From the NCBI GenBank assembly GCA_002069965.1, contig MWCI01000001.1:62001-126000 (forward strand): a stretch of DNA of 64,000 nucleotides, in the 5' to 3' direction. Numbering within the stretch: the stretch's first letter is position 1; the number at the start of each line of letters is the position of its first letter. A model generated the notes under the pieces. That model saw nothing but the letters and a program-made list of their open reading frames with translations, had not been told where the DNA came from and did no database searches. Below, piece by piece: positions 21,963-31,358 of this stretch. The stretch comes from Spirochaetes bacterium ADurb.Bin218. Its GTDB lineage: Bacteria; Spirochaetota; UBA4802; UBA5550. A program made the position numbers and the translations under genes.

Positions 21963-22262
21963 ATGGAAATTGACATCAAAGAAAGTGAACAACTTGTAGT
22001 AATAAAAGTTATTGGCGACATTGAGATGATGTCCATAAAGACTTTTAAAGAAATGCTTTTTGAGGTTGGTCAAAATAGTGATAAGAACATAGAAATTGAT
22101 CTTTCAGAAGTGGACTATATTGACTCTTCAGGAGTAGGTGTTCTCATAAGCATGCTTAAACTTCAAAAGAAAAAAGGCAAAGAATTAATAATCCAAAAAG
22201 TGAGCTCAAAGGTACTTAATGTCCTTAAACTTAGTTCACTTTCTGATGTATTTAACCTATAA
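21963..22262 (+). CDS. STAS-domain anti-sigma factor antagonist
   Basis: Single-domain SpoIIAA-like protein of 99 residues. The phosphorylatable motif is intact (VDYIDSSGVGVLISMLKL), with the first Ser of DSSG the expected kinase target. Such proteins bind an anti-sigma/serine kinase partner in the unphosphorylated state. No kinase or PP2C phosphatase gene is in the window. ispF starts 5 bases after the stop, so both are probably on one transcript by accident of packing. Confidence 0.92.
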   Translation: MEIDIKESEQLVVIKVIGDIEMMSIKTFKEMLFEVGQNSDKNIEIDLSEVDYIDSSGVGVLISMLKLQKKKGKELIIQKVSSKVLNVLKLSSLSDVFNL

Positions 22263-22267
22263 TAAAT

Positions 22268-22756
22268 ATGAAAATCATCATAGGTAATGGCTTTGATGTC
22301 CACGCTTTTGCAGAAGGCAGAGATCTAATCCTTGGTGGAGTAAAAATTCCTTTTGAGAAGGGATTGGCAGGTCATTCTGATGCTGATGTCCTGACTCACG
22401 CAATAATTGATTCCATTCTTAGCCCCTGTGGTTGTGGCGACATAGGACAGATGTTCCCTGACTCTGATAATCAATATAAAGATATAAATAGCATATATCT
22501 TCTGACAATTGCTTATAAAAAAGTAAAAGAAGCTGGGTATCGTATAATCAACAGTGATTCTGTCATTGCCTGTGAAAAGCCAAAGATCCTCCCTTATGTA
22601 GATTCAATGAAACAAAGACTTTCCGATGCATTTAGCAATGAAGTTCCACCAGAATCAATTGGAATAAAAGGAAAAACTACAGAAAAACTTGGATTTATAG
22701 GCAGAGGGGAAGGCATTGCTGTATGGACAGTCACACTCCTTGAAAGGCTTTCTTGA
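22268..22756 (+). CDS. ispF: 2-C-methyl-D-erythritol 2,4-cyclodiphosphate synthase
   Basis: Fifth enzyme of the non-mevalonate (MEP) isoprenoid pathway. The zinc site is seen in NGFDVHAF (Asp and His), and GLAGHSDADVLTHAIIDSIL and CGDIGQMFPD are diagnostic. The C-terminal KTTEKLGFIGRGEGIAV is standard. The length of 162 is normal. IspH of the same pathway is encoded 23 kb further right as part of a fusion. The 102-base gap to the convergent GcvH-like gene shows no convincing terminator. Confidence 0.97.
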   Translation: MKIIIGNGFDVHAFAEGRDLILGGVKIPFEKGLAGHSDADVLTHAIIDSILSPCGCGDIGQMFPDSDNQYKDINSIYLLTIAYKKVKEAGYRIINSDSVIACEKPKILPYVDSMKQRLSDAFSNEVPPESIGIKGKTTEKLGFIGRGEGIAVWTVTLLERLS

Positions 22757-22858: not shown

Positions 22859-23269
22859 TTACTCCTCAATTTTCATTTTATTGACAAAATCAATGTATTC
22901 TTCCTCTGATATTACATCTAAAAATCTCCCATCTATAGGTTCAATTTCAAAAAGCCAACCATCTCCATGAGGATCCTCGTTTATAATTACAGGATTATCA
23001 TAAATTTCTCTGTTTATGTTTGTGATTGTTCCATGAAGCGGAGATTTGATTTCTATAACATCTCTGAGGGATTCAATAGTTGCAATAGCATCATTTTGAT
23101 ATATTTCCATTCCAATTATGTTTTTAATAAATTCAGCTGATATTATCTCGCCAAGTAGCTCTGCAATATGGAATGTAATTCCACATCTAAAAATTCCATA
23201 ATCTACTTTTTTTAGCCAGATATGTTCATAAGTAAATAAAACTGTATCATCAAATCGTTCAAACGCCAT
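22859..23269 (-). CDS. GcvH-like protein lacking the lipoyl lysine
   Basis: Resembles glycine cleavage system H protein along its length: YEHIWLKK at the start, GITFHIAELLGEI in the middle, SPLHGTITNIN and NPVIINEDPHGDGWLFEIE at the end. At the position of the lipoylated lysine (normally ESVKA) the sequence is ESLRD, with Arg 69 read from an AGA codon. It therefore cannot carry lipoate and should not work in glycine cleavage. It lies 7 bases after the gene for a very large TPR protein on the same strand, and no gcvT or gcvP is nearby. A structural or binding role is inferred; the true function is unknown. Confidence 0.8.
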   Translation of the reverse strand: MAFERFDDTVLFTYEHIWLKKVDYGIFRCGITFHIAELLGEIISAEFIKNIIGMEIYQNDAIATIESLRDVIEIKSPLHGTITNINREIYDNPVIINEDPHGDGWLFEIEPIDGRFLDVISEEEYIDFVNKMKIEE

Positions 23270-23276
23270 TTTGGGA

Positions 23277-26111
23277 CTACTGGTTTATATCTTGTTGATT
23301 ATTGAAAAAAAAATCATAAAGGTTTTCGGCCTGGAGGTTGAATTTTCCCCTTGAGTGTTCTTTGATTATTTGCTGTAAAAGTTCAGATGACATGGAATAA
23401 TTCTTCTGTTCATAATATAATATGGCAAGTTCAAGTTTGCTTTTGATGCCATATTCACTGTTGCCGTTGTCTTGTGTGATTGTTTTATTAAAATATTTCA
23501 TGGCCATATTTTTATTTTTTTGAAGCAGCAAATTAAGCATGCCAAGATAGTAATTAGCCTCTATGGTATACTCGTTTTCACTTTGAGCAATCTTGTAAAA
23601 GTGGAAATAGGACTGATTATAATTTCCTAATTCATAATTTATTTTGCCAGAAAGGTAGTAAACATAGTTGGTATTTTCTTGGTAAGGCGTAAGATATTTT
23701 AGATATTTATTAAATGATTTAATATCCTTTTGATTATAATGGAAAAGCAAATTTAATAATAAAATCCTCTCAATATATCTTGTTGTAGATACAAGGCTTA
23801 GATTTTCTTCAGTTAGGCTTGCTCCTTCCCTTTCTCTACCGCTATAGAAATAATTCAGGATAGTAAGAGCTTCTTTGCTCGGGATATTTTCTTTCAGTAC
23901 TATGAGGTTTAGATAGATAAATGAGTTCTCATAAGATCCTGTTTCAGAAAAGATCTCAGCCATAGCAATTTTTGCTTTATCTTTTATTGAGTCACCTATC
24001 TGTGAGCTTATAATTCTTTCAAATATTGATTTAGCAGAGTTGAAATCTTTTTCTGAATAGTAGTAATATCCAATTTTTAAAAGCATCTCGTTTTTGAGAT
24101 TTTCGTCTTGTAGTGATTCTGCCATTTTTGAGGCTGTAAAAGCATCTCTTACTTTTAAAACAGAATCAATGATAAGCTCTATGTCTGCTGGTGGATATGA
24201 GGATATATCCTCCCATTTTGTTAGGTTATATACTGCATCATATTGTCCAAGATTGTAGTAGCTTCTAATCTGTATAAGGGGAAGTTCCATCCATTGAGCC
24301 TCATCAAGAGCTGGAATTTGCATGCTTTTAACTATCTCAATTATTCTATTATATCTTTTGATTTTATAATTTGATTGCAACAGATTAAAGTAAGCATCAC
24401 CCCTACTTTCTGAATTGTTGCTATTGAGATACTTTTCATAGTGAATAATTGCCTTTTCGTAATTTTTTTTCTCATAAAATTCATTAGCATATATTAAATC
24501 AACAAGTGCTGAAAACGAAGACTCTGTAAAGTTGTTTTGTAAAATCGAAAAATAATTTCTGGCAGAGCTATTTTTCTTTTCATATAAAGCCTTTGCAAGT
24601 TTATAGATGAGTTCATCAACATTTGGATACTTTGAATATCGTGAAATCAATAAATTTATTTCTGGCTTTGCCTTTTCCAGTTCACCCTCTTCAATATATA
24701 ATTCTGCAAGAAGCTTGTGTGCATCAAAGGAGTGCTCTATATCTTTTTTTGATAGATAGCTTTTCAATAAATTGATAGCGTCTTTATTCTTCTTCTTTTT
24801 GATATTTATAACTGCCATGTAATAATCTGTGTCGTTTAAAAATTTAGAAAATGGATTTTTAACCTTAAGATCATCAAAAACCTGTAATGCTGTATTGAAA
24901 TCCCCTTTAAATATAAGCAAGATCCCTTTATTGAACATAACCTCATCTATATTTTCATCATAGGGATATTTTTCAAGATATAGAGAAACTATCTTTTCTG
25001 CTTTTTCATGAGACTGAGTCTTGATATAGGCCCTGAGAAGCACCAAAAGTATTTTTTTCTGTTCCTCTTCAGATTTTATTTGAGTAAACTTTTCCAGATA
25101 CTCAATTGCCTTTTCTGGAGATATATTGATAAAATACTGTGCCAGTAAAAGTGCAGATTTTGCAGAGAGCTCTTCATCTTTGCAATTTTCTATAATCTCT
25201 GAAAGAATTTCTACACCTGATTCTGGTTTGGTGCTACTTATGATAATATTTGCCAGCTCAAATAAGCCAGGGTAATAATATTCAGATTTTTTCCCTATGA
25301 GATGAAAAAATTCCAGCTCATTTTTTGCAGCAGAGGCTCGCCCTGTGTTGATATAAGAAAGGGCTCTAAAATAATAAACATCATAAAAAGGATAACTATC
25401 TGATAAATCCTTTGGAATTGCATTAAGAGAGGCAAGAGCCTTCTTGTGATCCTCCTGAAGTTGGTATATTCTTCCAATCAATAGTCTCACCTCAGCTTTA
25501 TCTCTGCTGTTAATTCGTGCACTAAGCAAAGGGAGAAGTCTTTCCAGCGCTTTATCATAAGAACTGTTTAGAAAGAGAGCTTTTCCTATTTTTAGCACAA
25601 TCTGTGCGTTTTCTTCCATATTTTGACTTATTTTTAGAGACTTTTCCCATTCTATCACAGCCTCTTCATAGCGTTTGTCAGTTATATAGATATTGGCTAT
25701 GCGATCATGAGCAGCCATAACCATGGAGATATTATCAGATTTTTCCAGAAAACGATTATATTCCTCAATAGCCTTTAATGAATCTTTCAGAAGGAAATAA
25801 GCCTCACCCATCCAGAAGCGTGATTCTATTCTTAAATTTTCAGAACGGCATTTTGTGAGAAAACTGTTAAACTCAAAGATAGCAGCTTTATATTTTCCCT
25901 GCTGGAGAATTGTTCTTGCAAGATAAAACCATGCCTGATCTCTGAAGTCATCATCATTTTCCAGAGTTTTGCGAAAAAGTAATTCAGCAGAGGAATAGTT
26001 TCCAGATTTAAAAGCCTCGAGCCCTTGATTGAAAATTACTTTTGAATCAACTGCTGCAAATAAAATTAAAGAGCTAAACAATATTGCAGTACTAAATATA
26101 AATTTTTTCAT
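23277..26111 (-). CDS. Large exported TPR-repeat protein (944 aa)
   Basis: A signal peptide (KKFIFSTAILFSSLILFAA) is followed by tetratricopeptide repeats over nearly the whole chain. Clear examples are FNQGLEAFKSGNYSSAELLF, AWFYLARTILQQGKYKAAIF, SRFWMGEAYFLLKDSLKAI, and, near the end, SGKINYELGNYNQSYFHFY and KLELAILYYEQKNYSMSSEL. Such proteins act as periplasmic or outer-membrane scaffolds. No enzymatic domain or TonB box is seen. It sits between cinA (24-base gap) and the GcvH-like gene (7-base gap), all on the minus strand. Partner proteins are unknown. Confidence 0.88.
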   Translation of the reverse strand: MKKFIFSTAILFSSLILFAAVDSKVIFNQGLEAFKSGNYSSAELLFRKTLENDDDFRDQAWFYLARTILQQGKYKAAIFEFNSFLTKCRSENLRIESRFWMGEAYFLLKDSLKAIEEYNRFLEKSDNISMVMAAHDRIANIYITDKRYEEAVIEWEKSLKISQNMEENAQIVLKIGKALFLNSSYDKALERLLPLLSARINSRDKAEVRLLIGRIYQLQEDHKKALASLNAIPKDLSDSYPFYDVYYFRALSYINTGRASAAKNELEFFHLIGKKSEYYYPGLFELANIIISSTKPESGVEILSEIIENCKDEELSAKSALLLAQYFINISPEKAIEYLEKFTQIKSEEEQKKILLVLLRAYIKTQSHEKAEKIVSLYLEKYPYDENIDEVMFNKGILLIFKGDFNTALQVFDDLKVKNPFSKFLNDTDYYMAVINIKKKKNKDAINLLKSYLSKKDIEHSFDAHKLLAELYIEEGELEKAKPEINLLISRYSKYPNVDELIYKLAKALYEKKNSSARNYFSILQNNFTESSFSALVDLIYANEFYEKKNYEKAIIHYEKYLNSNNSESRGDAYFNLLQSNYKIKRYNRIIEIVKSMQIPALDEAQWMELPLIQIRSYYNLGQYDAVYNLTKWEDISSYPPADIELIIDSVLKVRDAFTASKMAESLQDENLKNEMLLKIGYYYYSEKDFNSAKSIFERIISSQIGDSIKDKAKIAMAEIFSETGSYENSFIYLNLIVLKENIPSKEALTILNYFYSGREREGASLTEENLSLVSTTRYIERILLLNLLFHYNQKDIKSFNKYLKYLTPYQENTNYVYYLSGKINYELGNYNQSYFHFYKIAQSENEYTIEANYYLGMLNLLLQKNKNMAMKYFNKTITQDNGNSEYGIKSKLELAILYYEQKNYSMSSELLQQIIKEHSRGKFNLQAENLYDFFFNNQQDINQ

Positions 26112-26135: not shown

Positions 26136-27356
26136 TTATTTTTTAATAAATTCTCTCACAGTGTTTATTGCATATAATGCGGATAGATTTCTTACTCTCT
26201 CTCTATCTCCATTAAATATTTTAGTTTCTGATTTTTTTTGACCACACAAATCAAAGGCAAAGCAGACAGTCCCTACTTTTTTTTCTTTTGTTGCACCCCC
26301 AGGACCTGCTATCCCTGTAATGGCTATTGCTATATCATATTGAATTACTTTTTGCAAGCCATTTATCATTTCAAGAGCTGTTTCTTCGCTAACAGCCCCA
26401 TATTTTTTTAGAGTTGTTTCCGATACAGATAACAGATTTTGTTTAACTTCATTACTATAGGCAATTATAGATCCGTTGTAGACCTCGGATGACCCTGGAA
26501 TATCTGTAATCATTTTGGCAATGAGCCCTCCAGTACATGACTCTGCAGTTGCCAATTTTGTTTGCTTTTGTTTTAATAAAAAAACCAGTTCTTCAGAGGG
26601 AGATGAAAAACTGCTGTCTATCAATTTTTCTTTGAAGATATCCTTGAGCATTTCTTCTATAGATCTGGGATCATCAGTTGTATCATTTAAAGAAAGATAA
26701 ACTTCATATACTCCGGTTTTCGCAGAAATCCCCCACTTCCCCAGTTGTGGAATTTTACTCTTTTCAATAATTTCATTAATTGTAGATTCTCTCAATCCAG
26801 TTAATCTGAAGATTATGCCATCTGATTTTTTTAGATTAAATCTTTGACACAGATAGGGCTTTATTTCATTAACAAACATATCCTCAGCCTCAAAGGGAAC
26901 TCCTGGCATTGCAATAAGGAATTTATTATCTTTTTCTATTAGAAATCCAGGAGCATGGCCTTTATTGTTTTTAAAAACAACAGAGCCCTCAGGCACAAGT
27001 GCCATTTTATAATCCTTTTTGTTTATCTTGTAATTTGCTCTGGCAAATAGGCCTTCTATTCTAATGCGTGCATTTTCGTCAACTGTATCTTTTAATGAAA
27101 AAAATCTGCATATTGCTTCAACAGTTCTATCATCATCAGTAGGTCCAAGACCTCCTGTAATGAAAATTATATTACATCTTTTAAAGCTTTCTTCTATAGC
27201 ATAAATAATGGCCTCAATATCATCTCCAACTGTTATGCATTCAATTATTTCTATACCAGTTTCATATAGCTCTTTGCATATAAATGCACTATTAGTATCA
27301 AGGGTTCTACCATGAAGTAATTCTTCACCTGTTGTAATAATAATAGCCTTGTTCAT
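26136..27356 (-). CDS. cinA: CinA family protein (ADP-ribose pyrophosphatase / NMN deamidase type)
   Basis: Two-domain protein of 406 residues. The N-terminal MoaB/MogA-like domain starts KAIIITTGEELLHGRTLDTNSAFIC and includes FITGGLGPTDDDRT. The C-terminal PncC domain has TAESCTGGLIAKMI and AITGIAGPGGATKEKKVGTV, which in active proteins deamidates nicotinamide mononucleotide. Pyridine nucleotide recycling is the likely role. The ATG lies 1 base after the argS stop, so the two are translationally close. Confidence 0.95.
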   Translation of the reverse strand: MNKAIIITTGEELLHGRTLDTNSAFICKELYETGIEIIECITVGDDIEAIIYAIEESFKRCNIIFITGGLGPTDDDRTVEAICRFFSLKDTVDENARIRIEGLFARANYKINKKDYKMALVPEGSVVFKNNKGHAPGFLIEKDNKFLIAMPGVPFEAEDMFVNEIKPYLCQRFNLKKSDGIIFRLTGLRESTINEIIEKSKIPQLGKWGISAKTGVYEVYLSLNDTTDDPRSIEEMLKDIFKEKLIDSSFSSPSEELVFLLKQKQTKLATAESCTGGLIAKMITDIPGSSEVYNGSIIAYSNEVKQNLLSVSETTLKKYGAVSEETALEMINGLQKVIQYDIAIAITGIAGPGGATKEKKVGTVCFAFDLCGQKKSETKIFNGDRERVRNLSALYAINTVREFIKK

Positions 27357-27357
27357 A

Positions 27358-29037
27358 TCACATAACTTCTGGAGCGGACACTCCCAATATATTTAAGCCA
27401 TTTTTAAGGACAACCACTATAGCCTTACACAGTGCCAGTGCTGCTTTTGTTTTCTCTGCATCATCTGATAAGATTCTGTGTTCTGTATAAAATCTGTGAT
27501 AGCCTTGAGCAAGGCGCATTAAAAAAGTTGCTATTTTATGAGGTTCATAGGTCATGGCTGCATCTAAAATTTCTTCAGGATATTTAGACATAAGCTTCAT
27601 TAATGTTATGGCCTCAGGATTGTCAAGGTGTGCAATGTCAAAATCTGATATTTCTGTATTTATTCCTCTTTTTTGAGCCTCCCTAAATATTGAACAAATT
27701 CTTGCATGGGCATACTGCAAATAGAATACAGGATTTTCTGAGCTGTTACGTTTTGCAAGACCAAGATCAAAATCAAGATGGCTATCAAGGGATCTCATAA
27801 TAAAGAAATATCTTGATACATCGACTCCTATCTCGTCAATAAGCTCTTTCATCGTGGAGAATTTCCCAAGCCTTTTGGACATCTTGACTGCTTCTCCATC
27901 CATAATAAGGTTTACCTGTTGAGCGATGAGAACCTGAAATTTAGATTTCTCATATCCAAGTGCCTGCACTGCTCCTGATAATCTTGCAATGTAGCCATGG
28001 TGATCAGGTCCCCATATATCTATTATTTTATCATAGCCTCTCTGGATTTTATCATAATGATATGCTATATCTGCCATTAAATATGTGGGTCTGCCATCTT
28101 CTCTGACAACAACTCTATCTTTATCATCTCCAAATGCAGTGGATTTAAATATTTTTTTGCCATCTTCTGTATAAATATACCCTGAGGCCTCAAGTTTTTC
28201 AAAGGCTTTCTCTACCTCTCCACTTAGATGCAAAGAGCTTTCTCTAAACCATCTTTTAAAATTGACATTGAATGCAGCAAGATCTCTCTGTTGTGTTGCC
28301 ACATTGAACTCTACAGCTTTTTGAGCTGCAAATTCTATTCTTGCATTTTCATCTTCCAGAGAATTCAATTGTGATGAGAAATTATCTATTATCCATGCAG
28401 CTATATCCTTTATATATTCACCGTGGTATCCTTCTTCGGGAAAGATAAAATCCTCACCCTTAAGCTCTCTTATTCGTGCAAGAACTGACTGACCAAGAAG
28501 ATTAACCTGATTGCCATAATCATTTACATAAAATTCCCTATCTACAATATCTCCTGCCGCTTCTATGAGATTGGATATAGTATCGCCAATGGCAGCTGCT
28601 CTTGCAGAGACTACGTTCAGTGGACCTGTTGGATTTGCAGAGACAAATTCTATATTATACCGCATAGGATTTTCTTTGGTTCTCCTGCCAAAGTTATAGC
28701 CCTCTCTAAGGATCTGAAATATAGTGTCTTTGAGATAGCCAATGGAAATAAAAATATTGATAAAACCAGGTTTAGCTATTTCTATATTGCCAATTATATT
28801 TGAATTTAAAGAAAGAAGTTTATTTTTGATAATTTCTCCTATTTCCATAGGGGATCGCTTCAAGAGTTTAGCTAACTCAAGGGCTATTGGTGTTGAGTAA
28901 TCCCCAAATTTTGCCTCTTTTGGATATTCAATTTTTATCTTAGGATGTGGGATCTCTGGCAGTTCTCCACTTTTAACAGCCTCATATATAGCATTTTCTA
29001 TTAATTCATAGAGCAGTTCTTTGATATTTGCTTTCAA
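27358..29037 (-). CDS. argS: Arginyl-tRNA synthetase with altered HIGH motif
   Basis: Class I synthetase of 559 residues that charges tRNA(Arg). The N-terminal Add-1 domain (residues about 1-110), the catalytic fold and the C-terminal anticodon-binding helices with the typical LYEPHKIATFLMRLAQGYHRFY-like tail are recognisable. The ATP-binding HIGH motif after SANPTGPL is replaced by NVVS (residues 141-144), followed by ARAAAIGD; KMSKR (in AVKMSKRLGKFS) is kept. The rest of the protein is well conserved, so activity is expected. It heads the argS-cinA-TPR-GcvH-like operon. I recall similar NxVS forms in other spirochaetes but cannot verify that here. Confidence 0.94.
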   Translation of the reverse strand: MKANIKELLYELIENAIYEAVKSGELPEIPHPKIKIEYPKEAKFGDYSTPIALELAKLLKRSPMEIGEIIKNKLLSLNSNIIGNIEIAKPGFINIFISIGYLKDTIFQILREGYNFGRRTKENPMRYNIEFVSANPTGPLNVVSARAAAIGDTISNLIEAAGDIVDREFYVNDYGNQVNLLGQSVLARIRELKGEDFIFPEEGYHGEYIKDIAAWIIDNFSSQLNSLEDENARIEFAAQKAVEFNVATQQRDLAAFNVNFKRWFRESSLHLSGEVEKAFEKLEASGYIYTEDGKKIFKSTAFGDDKDRVVVREDGRPTYLMADIAYHYDKIQRGYDKIIDIWGPDHHGYIARLSGAVQALGYEKSKFQVLIAQQVNLIMDGEAVKMSKRLGKFSTMKELIDEIGVDVSRYFFIMRSLDSHLDFDLGLAKRNSSENPVFYLQYAHARICSIFREAQKRGINTEISDFDIAHLDNPEAITLMKLMSKYPEEILDAAMTYEPHKIATFLMRLAQGYHRFYTEHRILSDDAEKTKAALALCKAIVVVLKNGLNILGVSAPEVM

Positions 29038-29133: not shown

Positions 29134-29164
29134 TTGACTTGTTGTTTTTATTTATTACTAAGAT
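29134..29164 (+). promoter_or_regulatory. Candidate promoter for the adenylate cyclase gene
   Basis: TTGACT (29134-29139) and TAAGAT (29159-29164) are separated by 19 bases; the same TAAGAT follows the TTGACT before the STAS gene. The gap 29038-29201 separates argS from the cyclase and also holds a minus-strand TTGACA at 29109-29104 for which no clear -10 is seen. Confidence 0.3.
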
Positions 29165-29201
29165 ATATAAAGTCTCTTTATCCTACTGTCAGGAAATTTC
29201 T

Positions 29202-31358
29202 ATGGATATACTTATCTCTGCAATTAAGGTCATTTTCCTTATTCTTCTATTTGTTACATCTGCTATAGGTGGCAGAATGCTTGCAGTTAAAAATGAAAAA
29301 AATCAATGGCTCTTTTTCTTTATATGTTTGCTTACAGGTCCTGTCGGTTTATTATTTTTATTTATTTTAATTAAAATACCTCAAAAATTTGTCGCTATTT
29401 TTATATCTATTTTTATTTTTCTTGTGCTTACAGTGTTGTATTCTTTTACCACTCTTCTTTCTGGTCTGGAGTGGGGATCTATAGATTTTCGCTTTTACTT
29501 AAGGGATCCTTCACAGGCCTCGGTAAAACTTGAAGAGAGAGTGAGACTGAATAAGGTGAATCCCAAGGCCAGAAAGGATATAATTATTGTTGGTATTGAT
29601 GAGGCAACTATCAGAGAGTTTTCTGATCAGGGTATTCAGTGGCCATTCCCATGGGATGTTCATGCAAAGGTTACGCGATTTTTATCATCAGGCAGTCCCC
29701 TTGCCATACTTTACGATATAATGTTTCTGGATCGCAAGCCTGGAGAGAAGGAGCTTGCTTGGGCTATCAAAGATGCTAAGGTTGCTTTTCTGGATTATCC
29801 CTTTGAAACAAAAGAAGTGGACGTGGCATATAATGATATAGAAGAAAGAATCTCTCTCCTTGATAGATTTAAATTTCCCGCTAATCCTGATGATGACACT
29901 GAGGAGCTTGTGAAAGAACTGACCCCTCCCACTGTTGAGCTTTTGAAAAGTGCAAGGGGGTTTGGATTTGCAAATGTTTTCCCTGGAAGAGATGGGATCA
30001 ATAGAACCGTTCCTTTAGTGCTAAAATACAAGGGCTGGTACTATCCAAATATAGATCTTGTGGTTGCAATGCATTACTTTGGAATAACACAAAAGGATGT
30101 TGAGATTAAGATGGGAGAGTATATAAAGCTCAAAAATCTCCCACCAGAAAAAATGGCAAAGCCCAATAAAACTCGGACCATCACGATACCAATTGACAGA
30201 TATGGATTTATGGATATAAATTTCATTGGCGGCTCTGGCAGTTTCCAGCATTACCCTTATTATCTCTTTGCCAATGAGGGGACAATGGAAGGAAATGATT
30301 CTTTTAAAGATAAAATACTCCTCATTGCTGCATACGCTGCAACAGGGATTGCAACTGATGAAAAGCAATCACCTTATGGTGCAACCTTTGGTATAGAGCA
30401 TCATGCAAATGCTCTTAATACAATTTTAAACCAGGACTTCTTGTATAAGCTTAGTGATCTGCAAAATATTATCATAATGCTTTGCATTGCTATTTTACTT
30501 GGGATACTTGTTCCAAAATTATCAATACTTGCATCTCTGATAATAACTCTTGCACTGGCTATTGCCTATGGAATAGCATCATATTTATTATTTGATTATC
30601 TGAGCATAATAACAGCTTTTGCAACGCCTCTTATTCAGACTGCCCTTACCTACTCATTACTTGTAACTTATAGGGTTATTAATGAGCAACAAGAAAAAAA
30701 ATACATAAGGCAGACATTTTCAAAATTTGTTTCAAAATCTGTTGTTGATGAGTTGTTGAAGGATCCAAGTAAAGTAAAGCTTGGGGGTGATAAAAAAATA
30801 ATCACAGTTTTATTTTCTGATATAAGGGGATTTACTTCCATATCCGAAAAGCTCACTCCAGAGGCCCTTGTGGAGCATCTAAATATTTATCTTCAGGCAA
30901 TGACAGATATTATTTTAAAATACGATGGGACTCTTGATAAATACATAGGAGATGCAATAATGGCCTTTTGGGGAGCTCCTATTCCAATGGAAAATCATGC
31001 ACTGAAGGCCTGTATGGCTGCTGTGGAAATGTTGGAAGCCCTTAAGGTGATGAATGCTAAATGGATCAAAGAAGGAAAGCCTGCGCTTGACATCGGTATT
31101 GGAATAAACACCGGAGATATGGTTGTGGGCAATATGGGCTCTTCATCCAGAATGGATTATACACTCATGGGAGATAATGTAAATCTTGGTTCAAGGCTTG
31201 AGGGAACAAATAAATTTTATAAAACCCACATAATCATAAGCGAATTTACATATCAATATGTTGAAGATAAAATTATTGCAAGAGAGATTGATTTAATTCG
31301 TGTTAAGGGTAAGGCTTTACCTGTAAAAATCTATGAACTGATAGATATGAAAAAATAG
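29202..31358 (+). CDS. CHASE2-domain class III adenylate cyclase
   Basis: Membrane receptor cyclase of 718 residues from ATG 29202 (AGGAAA before it; an upstream in-frame TTG at 29139 is rejected). Two hydrophobic segments lead into an extracytoplasmic CHASE2 sensor domain (about residues 85-390, e.g. IIVGIDEATIREFSD, IMFLDRKPGEKE). Several further membrane segments follow (about 400-480), then a class III cyclase domain from about 515. Metal-binding Asp (FSDIRGFT, DKYIGDAIMAF), ATP-selecting Lys (LDKYIGD) and Asp (MDYTLMGD), and the NLGSRLEG transition-state pair are present, so ATP is the expected substrate. Ligand of CHASE2 unknown. A terminator hairpin follows. Confidence 0.93.
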   Translation: MDILISAIKVIFLILLFVTSAIGGRMLAVKNEKNQWLFFFICLLTGPVGLLFLFILIKIPQKFVAIFISIFIFLVLTVLYSFTTLLSGLEWGSIDFRFYLRDPSQASVKLEERVRLNKVNPKARKDIIIVGIDEATIREFSDQGIQWPFPWDVHAKVTRFLSSGSPLAILYDIMFLDRKPGEKELAWAIKDAKVAFLDYPFETKEVDVAYNDIEERISLLDRFKFPANPDDDTEELVKELTPPTVELLKSARGFGFANVFPGRDGINRTVPLVLKYKGWYYPNIDLVVAMHYFGITQKDVEIKMGEYIKLKNLPPEKMAKPNKTRTITIPIDRYGFMDINFIGGSGSFQHYPYYLFANEGTMEGNDSFKDKILLIAAYAATGIATDEKQSPYGATFGIEHHANALNTILNQDFLYKLSDLQNIIIMLCIAILLGILVPKLSILASLIITLALAIAYGIASYLLFDYLSIITAFATPLIQTALTYSLLVTYRVINEQQEKKYIRQTFSKFVSKSVVDELLKDPSKVKLGGDKKIITVLFSDIRGFTSISEKLTPEALVEHLNIYLQAMTDIILKYDGTLDKYIGDAIMAFWGAPIPMENHALKACMAAVEMLEALKVMNAKWIKEGKPALDIGIGINTGDMVVGNMGSSSRMDYTLMGDNVNLGSRLEGTNKFYKTHIIISEFTYQYVEDKIIAREIDLIRVKGKALPVKIYELIDMKK

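Follow-up and report, generated by a model that had tools for sequence, protein, structure and literature searches.

What can a glycine-cleavage H-protein (GcvH) fold still do in a bacterium once the lysine that carries the lipoyl group is gone? The question is raised by a small gene, here called gcvH', within the window, the whole 64,000-nucleotide stretch of Spirochaetes bacterium ADurb.Bin218 DNA analyzed in this work. The features of the locus are listed below; the names of the four flanking genes other than the TPR gene were assigned by reading the sequences.

22859..23269, minus strand: gcvH', lysine-less GcvH-family gene, 136 aa (open reading frame, Pfam, alignment, predicted fold)
23063..23065, minus strand: codon 69 of gcvH', AGA (Arg), at the lipoyl-lysine position (alignment, codon reading)
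23277..26111, minus strand: gene for a 944-aa TPR protein whose N terminus resembles a signal peptide, 7 bases upstream of gcvH'
26136..27356, minus strand: cinA-like gene, conserved neighbor in G007 and G009
27358..29037, minus strand: argS-like gene, conserved neighbor in G007 and G009
22268..22756, plus strand: ispF-like gene, convergent with gcvH'
21963..22262, plus strand: STAS-like gene

A GcvH-family protein with arginine at the lipoyl site

The first-pass annotation of this DNA had proposed that the lipoyl lysine is replaced by an arginine encoded by AGA while the surrounding fold signature is kept. Open reading frame, alignment, and codon bear out the replacement: Arg69 lies within the motif IESLRDVIEI, in a column where 65 of the 78 distinct GcvH-like rows have lysine. 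Retention of the fold signature is likewise supported. Pfam GCV_H (PF01597) matched residues 12-130 at 6e-23 (81.4 bits, cut-off 22.2) over profile positions 3-120 of 122, which places the protein in this family. An AlphaFold2 model (26 sequences) reached a mean pLDDT of 88.7 and had 1zko as its top Foldseek match (TM 0.81/0.86, E 7.7e-12), and the 22 Foldseek matches with E up to 0.001 were H-proteins or GcvH-like, as were the phmmer matches in the PDB. Because the model best matches GcvH crystal structures, the GcvH fold is predicted to be retained.

The protein does not show the features of a functional GcvH. The protein scored 75.1 bits against TIGR00527, the functional GcvH equivalog (cut-off 115.85), it carries Arg69 in place of the lipoyl-attachment lysine, and neither GcvP, GcvT, nor a lipoylating enzyme was detected in its genome. 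Scores also stayed below the cut-offs of the NCBIfam models GcvH_rel_desulf (37.9 versus 150 bits) and not_gcvH (49.3 versus 144.05 bits). The window protein thus shares fold, length, and core motifs with GcvH (PF01597, TIGR00527) but differs from it in the absence of the lipoyl lysine and other conserved residues and of GcvP and GcvT from the genome.

A genome without detected glycine cleavage and lipoate machinery

The assembly of the window genome (G000 in our set) comprises 3.03 Mb and is 96.6% complete. Family searches found no GcvP, GcvT, LplA/LipB, or 2-oxoacid dehydrogenase E2 in it, and LipA gave only a 19-bit match against a cut-off of 310. All machinery families were searched across one set of 59 genomes, in which most control genomes matched for each family. 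gcvH' was the only stand-alone GcvH gene found; the second PF01597 match, 42 residues inside a 1146-residue frame, was taken for a biotin-type domain. A genuine gcvH elsewhere in the genome, suggested earlier as something to look for, was not found. Both glycine cleavage and the chemistry of lipoate thus appear to be entirely gone from the host bacterium, and since neither GcvP, GcvT, nor lipoylation enzymes were found, the earlier statement that the protein cannot serve in glycine cleavage is supported.

These data also bear on the notion that AGA is a sequencing or assembly error for AAA in an otherwise ordinary GcvH. The two codons differ by a single base, but E17, A35, S72, and Y75 are changed as well in the window protein, and neither the pathway nor a lipoylation enzyme was detected in its genome. 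We consider such an error extremely improbable.

Lysine-less copies in the order

Of the 46 genomes in the order, ten contained a lysine-less GcvH copy, in each case with an intact reading frame. The site residue is arginine in G000 and G028, glycine in G003, and isoleucine in G009; in the six genomes of one genus, g4, it is threonine (G005, G017), valine (G014), isoleucine (G016, G019), or serine (G018). Whether arginine is conserved among orthologs had been posed as a check, and these six different residues show that it is not; arginine at the site carries no special meaning. Trees gave no support for pairing the G000 and G028 rows alone, and shared descent of their arginine was rejected as an explanation. 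The tree test did not reject one common origin for the lysine-less copies (p-AU 0.58), and a clade uniting them with G007b was disfavored (p-AU 0.028); the trees used 52 and 30 rows from the 78-row material and excluded the receiver-fused rows described below and most of the genome_contigs rows.

All six g4 genomes combine the lysine-less copy with an ordinary GcvH gene adjoining gcvP. In the tree, the ordinary g4 GcvH (four of the six genomes; L048, L057, L058, L093) lies far from the other GcvH of the family, as though g4 had obtained its ordinary gcv set from another source.

GcvP, GcvT, LplA/LipB, and any LipA above cut-off are missing from fourteen genomes of the order (G000, G002, G003, G006, G009, G011, G015, G021, G024, G026, G028, G030, G033, and G038; G030 was included despite a marginal LplA-type match of 26-29 bits, and G026 has one below cut-off). 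Four of them (G000, G003, G009, and G028) have a stand-alone GcvH, in each case lysine-less. No stand-alone GcvH occurs in the remaining ten, of which G006 contains GCV_H domains inside larger proteins only; given this absence, the function of a stand-alone GcvH would be dispensable or not general. Weak PF01597 matches in G033, G024, and G028, considered as possible GcvH pseudogene fragments, were read as short biotin-carrier-type proteins.

Outside the order, lysine was present in 59 of 60 examined GcvH copies, which were the best-listed matches from a sample of 392 genomes of the larger phylum; the exception, a second GcvH copy in G056 (C180; L253, 6124-6510), has asparagine at the lipoyl site (VESENTV) and is apparently an independent case.

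Loss of the putative arm site and retention of the core

Ten lysine-less rows were compared by column with 35 canonical rows from the order and other families of the phylum, with G007b shown separately. Six residues typical of the canonical rows, E17, A35, V68, K69, S72, and Y75, were found in none of the lysine-less rows, and A70 was lost in nine of the ten. W18, G30, E66, P77, G80, N86, P93, G104, W105, and Y125 were present in all ten. At position 17, glutamate is replaced by I, V, L, or G and at position 72 serine by F, I, Y, or C, mostly hydrophobic residues. By analogy with the pea H-protein structure, the HEW-motif glutamate and residues close to the lysine would line the arm-binding cleft. 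Read in this way, the pattern in the lysine-less copies is one of a putative arm site lost and a core retained.

It is possible to picture this as a sequence of events in which glycine cleavage and lipoate synthesis would first have disappeared from the lineage. The lysine and the arm-binding groove would then have been released from selection and the groove refilled partly by hydrophobic side chains, and the remaining surface would have kept a second function, either already present in the H-protein or acquired.

Selection or decay

The main rival to a retained function is decay: the gene would have become functionless with the loss of glycine cleavage and merely not yet have been destroyed. 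It draws on the long branches of the window protein and the G003 protein in the tree (1.91 and 3.6 changes per column, respectively), on the disappearance of otherwise conserved residues from the lysine-less copies, and on the fact that most machinery-less genomes of the order retain no stand-alone GcvH. The intact frame of all ten lysine-less copies and the ten core residues that are invariant among them speak against it. The six g4 copies share 45-68% identity, with pairwise dN of 0.22-0.48 and dS that is mostly saturated and 1.9-2.4 where estimable; as judged from these codon substitutions, they are shown to be under purifying selection. Constraint is stronger on the ordinary g4 GcvH (dN 0.15-0.20 in four genomes). 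As all six g4 copies are lysine-less, the simplest history would be loss of the lysine before their split and constraint afterwards.

The window gene has no close relative from which to take dN/dS, and we infer selection on it as in g4. The window gene differs from G007b at 0.45, 0.36, and 0.62 of codon positions 1, 2, and 3, respectively, in a comparison that also spans time before the lysine was lost. In a neutral simulation, the fraction of open frames was at most 0.0044 at 0.5 substitutions per site and lower beyond, and an open frame at the divergence of the window gene would not be expected without selection. Purifying selection in g4 and the frame simulation both count against decay, though neither is proof of post-loss constraint on the window branch. 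Because a neutral frame rarely stays open, we regard a decaying relic as the less likely reading and, on balance, rather unlikely, a judgment tempered by the long branch and by the time that passed before the loss.

The neighboring TPR gene

Linkage to the TPR gene is also seen in related genera. The gene order argS-cinA-TPR-gcvH' is shared by G000 and G007 (all names except TPR and gcvH' by reading the sequences). In G003, gcvH' comes straight after the last part of the TPR gene at a contig end, and in G009 the order is argS-cinA-TPR-aroQ-gcvH'. The distance between the TPR and GcvH genes in G000, G003, and G007 is 7, 0, or -4 bases. Four terminator-like sites occur in the region, none of them between the TPR gene and gcvH', and promoter-like sites in the TPR-gcvH' region were no more common than in shuffled sequences (16 versus a mean of 19.4). 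A 739-aa protein, by eye of the CHASE2-adenylate-cyclase type, is encoded at 29139-31358 of the window, divergent from argS; G007 and G009 encode a homolog at the corresponding position.

In the rest of the order, the TPR gene is widespread without gcvH', mostly with aroQ and other genes behind it and, in G004 and G012, with gcvT downstream of TPR-aroQ. The description of gcvH' as lying right behind a 944-residue TPR protein rather than with gcv genes therefore stands as to adjacency, but the TPR gene itself can have gcvT nearby. As in the window, ispF and STAS genes are found near gcvH' in four g4 genomes (G014, G016, G017, and G019). In each of the six g4 genomes, the lysine-less gcvH is followed by a gene for a membrane-like protein of 104-114 aa (L097, 8455-8781, and its equivalents in L092, L096, L098, L099, and L100); Pfam gave no match for the L097 protein.

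The syntenic G007 copy keeps the lysine (ESPKD) yet has Q17, D70, and F72. Its genome also encodes GcvP, GcvT, and LipA, along with a second GcvH and a lipoate ligase-type gene. The first-pass annotation had named orthologs with lysine as evidence against its reading, which this copy provides in part. In the trees, the G007 copy groups with the ordinary GcvH of G007 and G001, and a two-residue insertion is common to G000, G003, G007a, G007b, and G001. Because the G007 copy keeps the lysine and groups with ordinary GcvH and because the insertion is shared, the TPR-linked locus probably once held a lipoylated H-protein.

Could gcvH' then be a partner of the neighboring TPR protein, for example in envelope assembly? 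In favor of such a partnership are the adjacency in G000, G003, and G007, with aroQ between the two genes in G009, and the presence of a lysine-less or TPR-linked copy in 10 of 14 family genomes with the TPR gene versus 0 of 6 without it (Fisher p 0.011, a count that treats the six related g4 genomes separately and G010, with a TPR fragment at a contig end, as lacking the gene). By eye, a signal-peptide-like segment opens the TPR protein of G000, G007, and G009 and is missing from the gcvH' protein, so that the TPR protein is probably exported and the gcvH' protein cytosolic, in different compartments. Moreover, 7 of the 10 lysine-less genes (the six of g4 and that of G028) do not lie beside a TPR gene, and TPR orthologs are common in the order without gcvH'. 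Since most lysine-less genes are unlinked and the TPR protein looks exported, direct partnership is improbable, and the TPR protein is not supported as the natural partner.

GCV_H domains fused to receiver domains

In both G009 and G006, two tandem genes encode proteins carrying a GCV_H domain at the C terminus (L104, 7419-9419; L105, 7233-9429), adjoining a kinase-sized open reading frame and redox-type genes. By Pfam, both members of the G009 pair contain a receiver domain, as does the G006 protein that was scanned; its tandem partner in G006 reads alike. A related GCV_H protein of 235 aa in G007 has no receiver (L106, 7116-7823). Like the window protein, the receiver-GCV_H proteins of G006 and G009 contain a GCV_H domain in genomes without lipoylation enzymes, and the residue at the lipoyl site of the G009 pair is not lysine; unlike it, they are receiver-fused and encoded by separate genes. 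The fusion of lysine-less GCV_H to receiver domains in G009 implies that this fold can serve as a module.

Relation to known GcvH-like proteins

To our knowledge, the eukaryotic protein Simiate/FAM206A is not a lipoyl carrier. Its authors derived it from the H-protein, with about 20% identity and another role (PMC3859600), and its eukaryotic origin sets it apart from the window protein. LbpA proteins, the lipoate-binding GcvH-like proteins of Hdr-like sulfur oxidation, resemble the window protein in having a role outside glycine cleavage; all 95 LbpA proteins aligned in that study, however, retain the lysine (PMC6067878), which the window protein lacks. LbpA is recognized by this conserved lysine and, in most members, by cysteines near both ends, whereas the window protein has Arg69 and a lone cysteine at residue 29, and no hdr-type genes were noticed beside gcvH'. 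In FCB bacteria, a GcvH-like gene is described in an operon with VanZ-2, SprA, and TonB-C genes (PMC12419801). It is thus linked to envelope genes rather than gcv genes, like the window gene, but its product is called a lipoyl-group carrier and its neighbors differ from those of gcvH' (PMC12419801). No description of a lysine-less bacterial GcvH was found in the accessible portions of the open-licence PMC literature.

A possible lipoate-independent role

Taken together, the lysine-less versions in relatives suggest that the fold has been kept for another job. Such re-use is plausible because ten of the 46 genomes contain lysine-less copies and one genus shows selection on them; of the earlier proposal of a lipoyl-domain fold re-used as a binding module, re-use thus remains plausible, and the TPR protein as its partner is not supported. 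For the window protein, we give a probability of about one half to descent from an H-protein and retention for a task independent of lipoate, most likely that of a small cytosolic adaptor (binding) module, whose retained activity would be protein or ligand binding. The lysine-less genes have different neighbors in g4, in G028, and in the TPR-linked set, so a shared role is conjectural.

One such role might be that of a decoy or regulator of glycine cleavage or lipoyl transfer, competing with ordinary GcvH, and the six g4 genomes do hold an ordinary GcvH with gcvP next to a lysine-less copy. G000, G003, G009, and G028, however, have neither the pathway nor lipoylating enzymes. This refutes the idea for gcvH' of the window genome, unless the missing genes are hidden in unassembled DNA, and overall we hold it to be very unlikely.

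Returning to a lipoate-independent role, it is tempting to speculate, as a tentative generalization to which we give somewhat less than even odds, that the H-protein fold performs a function independent of lipoate in this order, one selected even after total loss of glycine cleavage and lipoylation, that the refilled arm groove has turned into an interaction surface, and that the same lysine-less module also serves at the C terminus of response regulators. The H-protein has been suspected of roles beyond glycine cleavage, and for mouse GCSH a role in lipoylation is proposed (PMC7868403). A gcvH annotation need not imply that a glycine-cleavage pathway is present. If gcvH' is under selection, a lysine-less H-protein in a machinery-free bacterium would isolate a lipoate-independent role of this family in a clean background.
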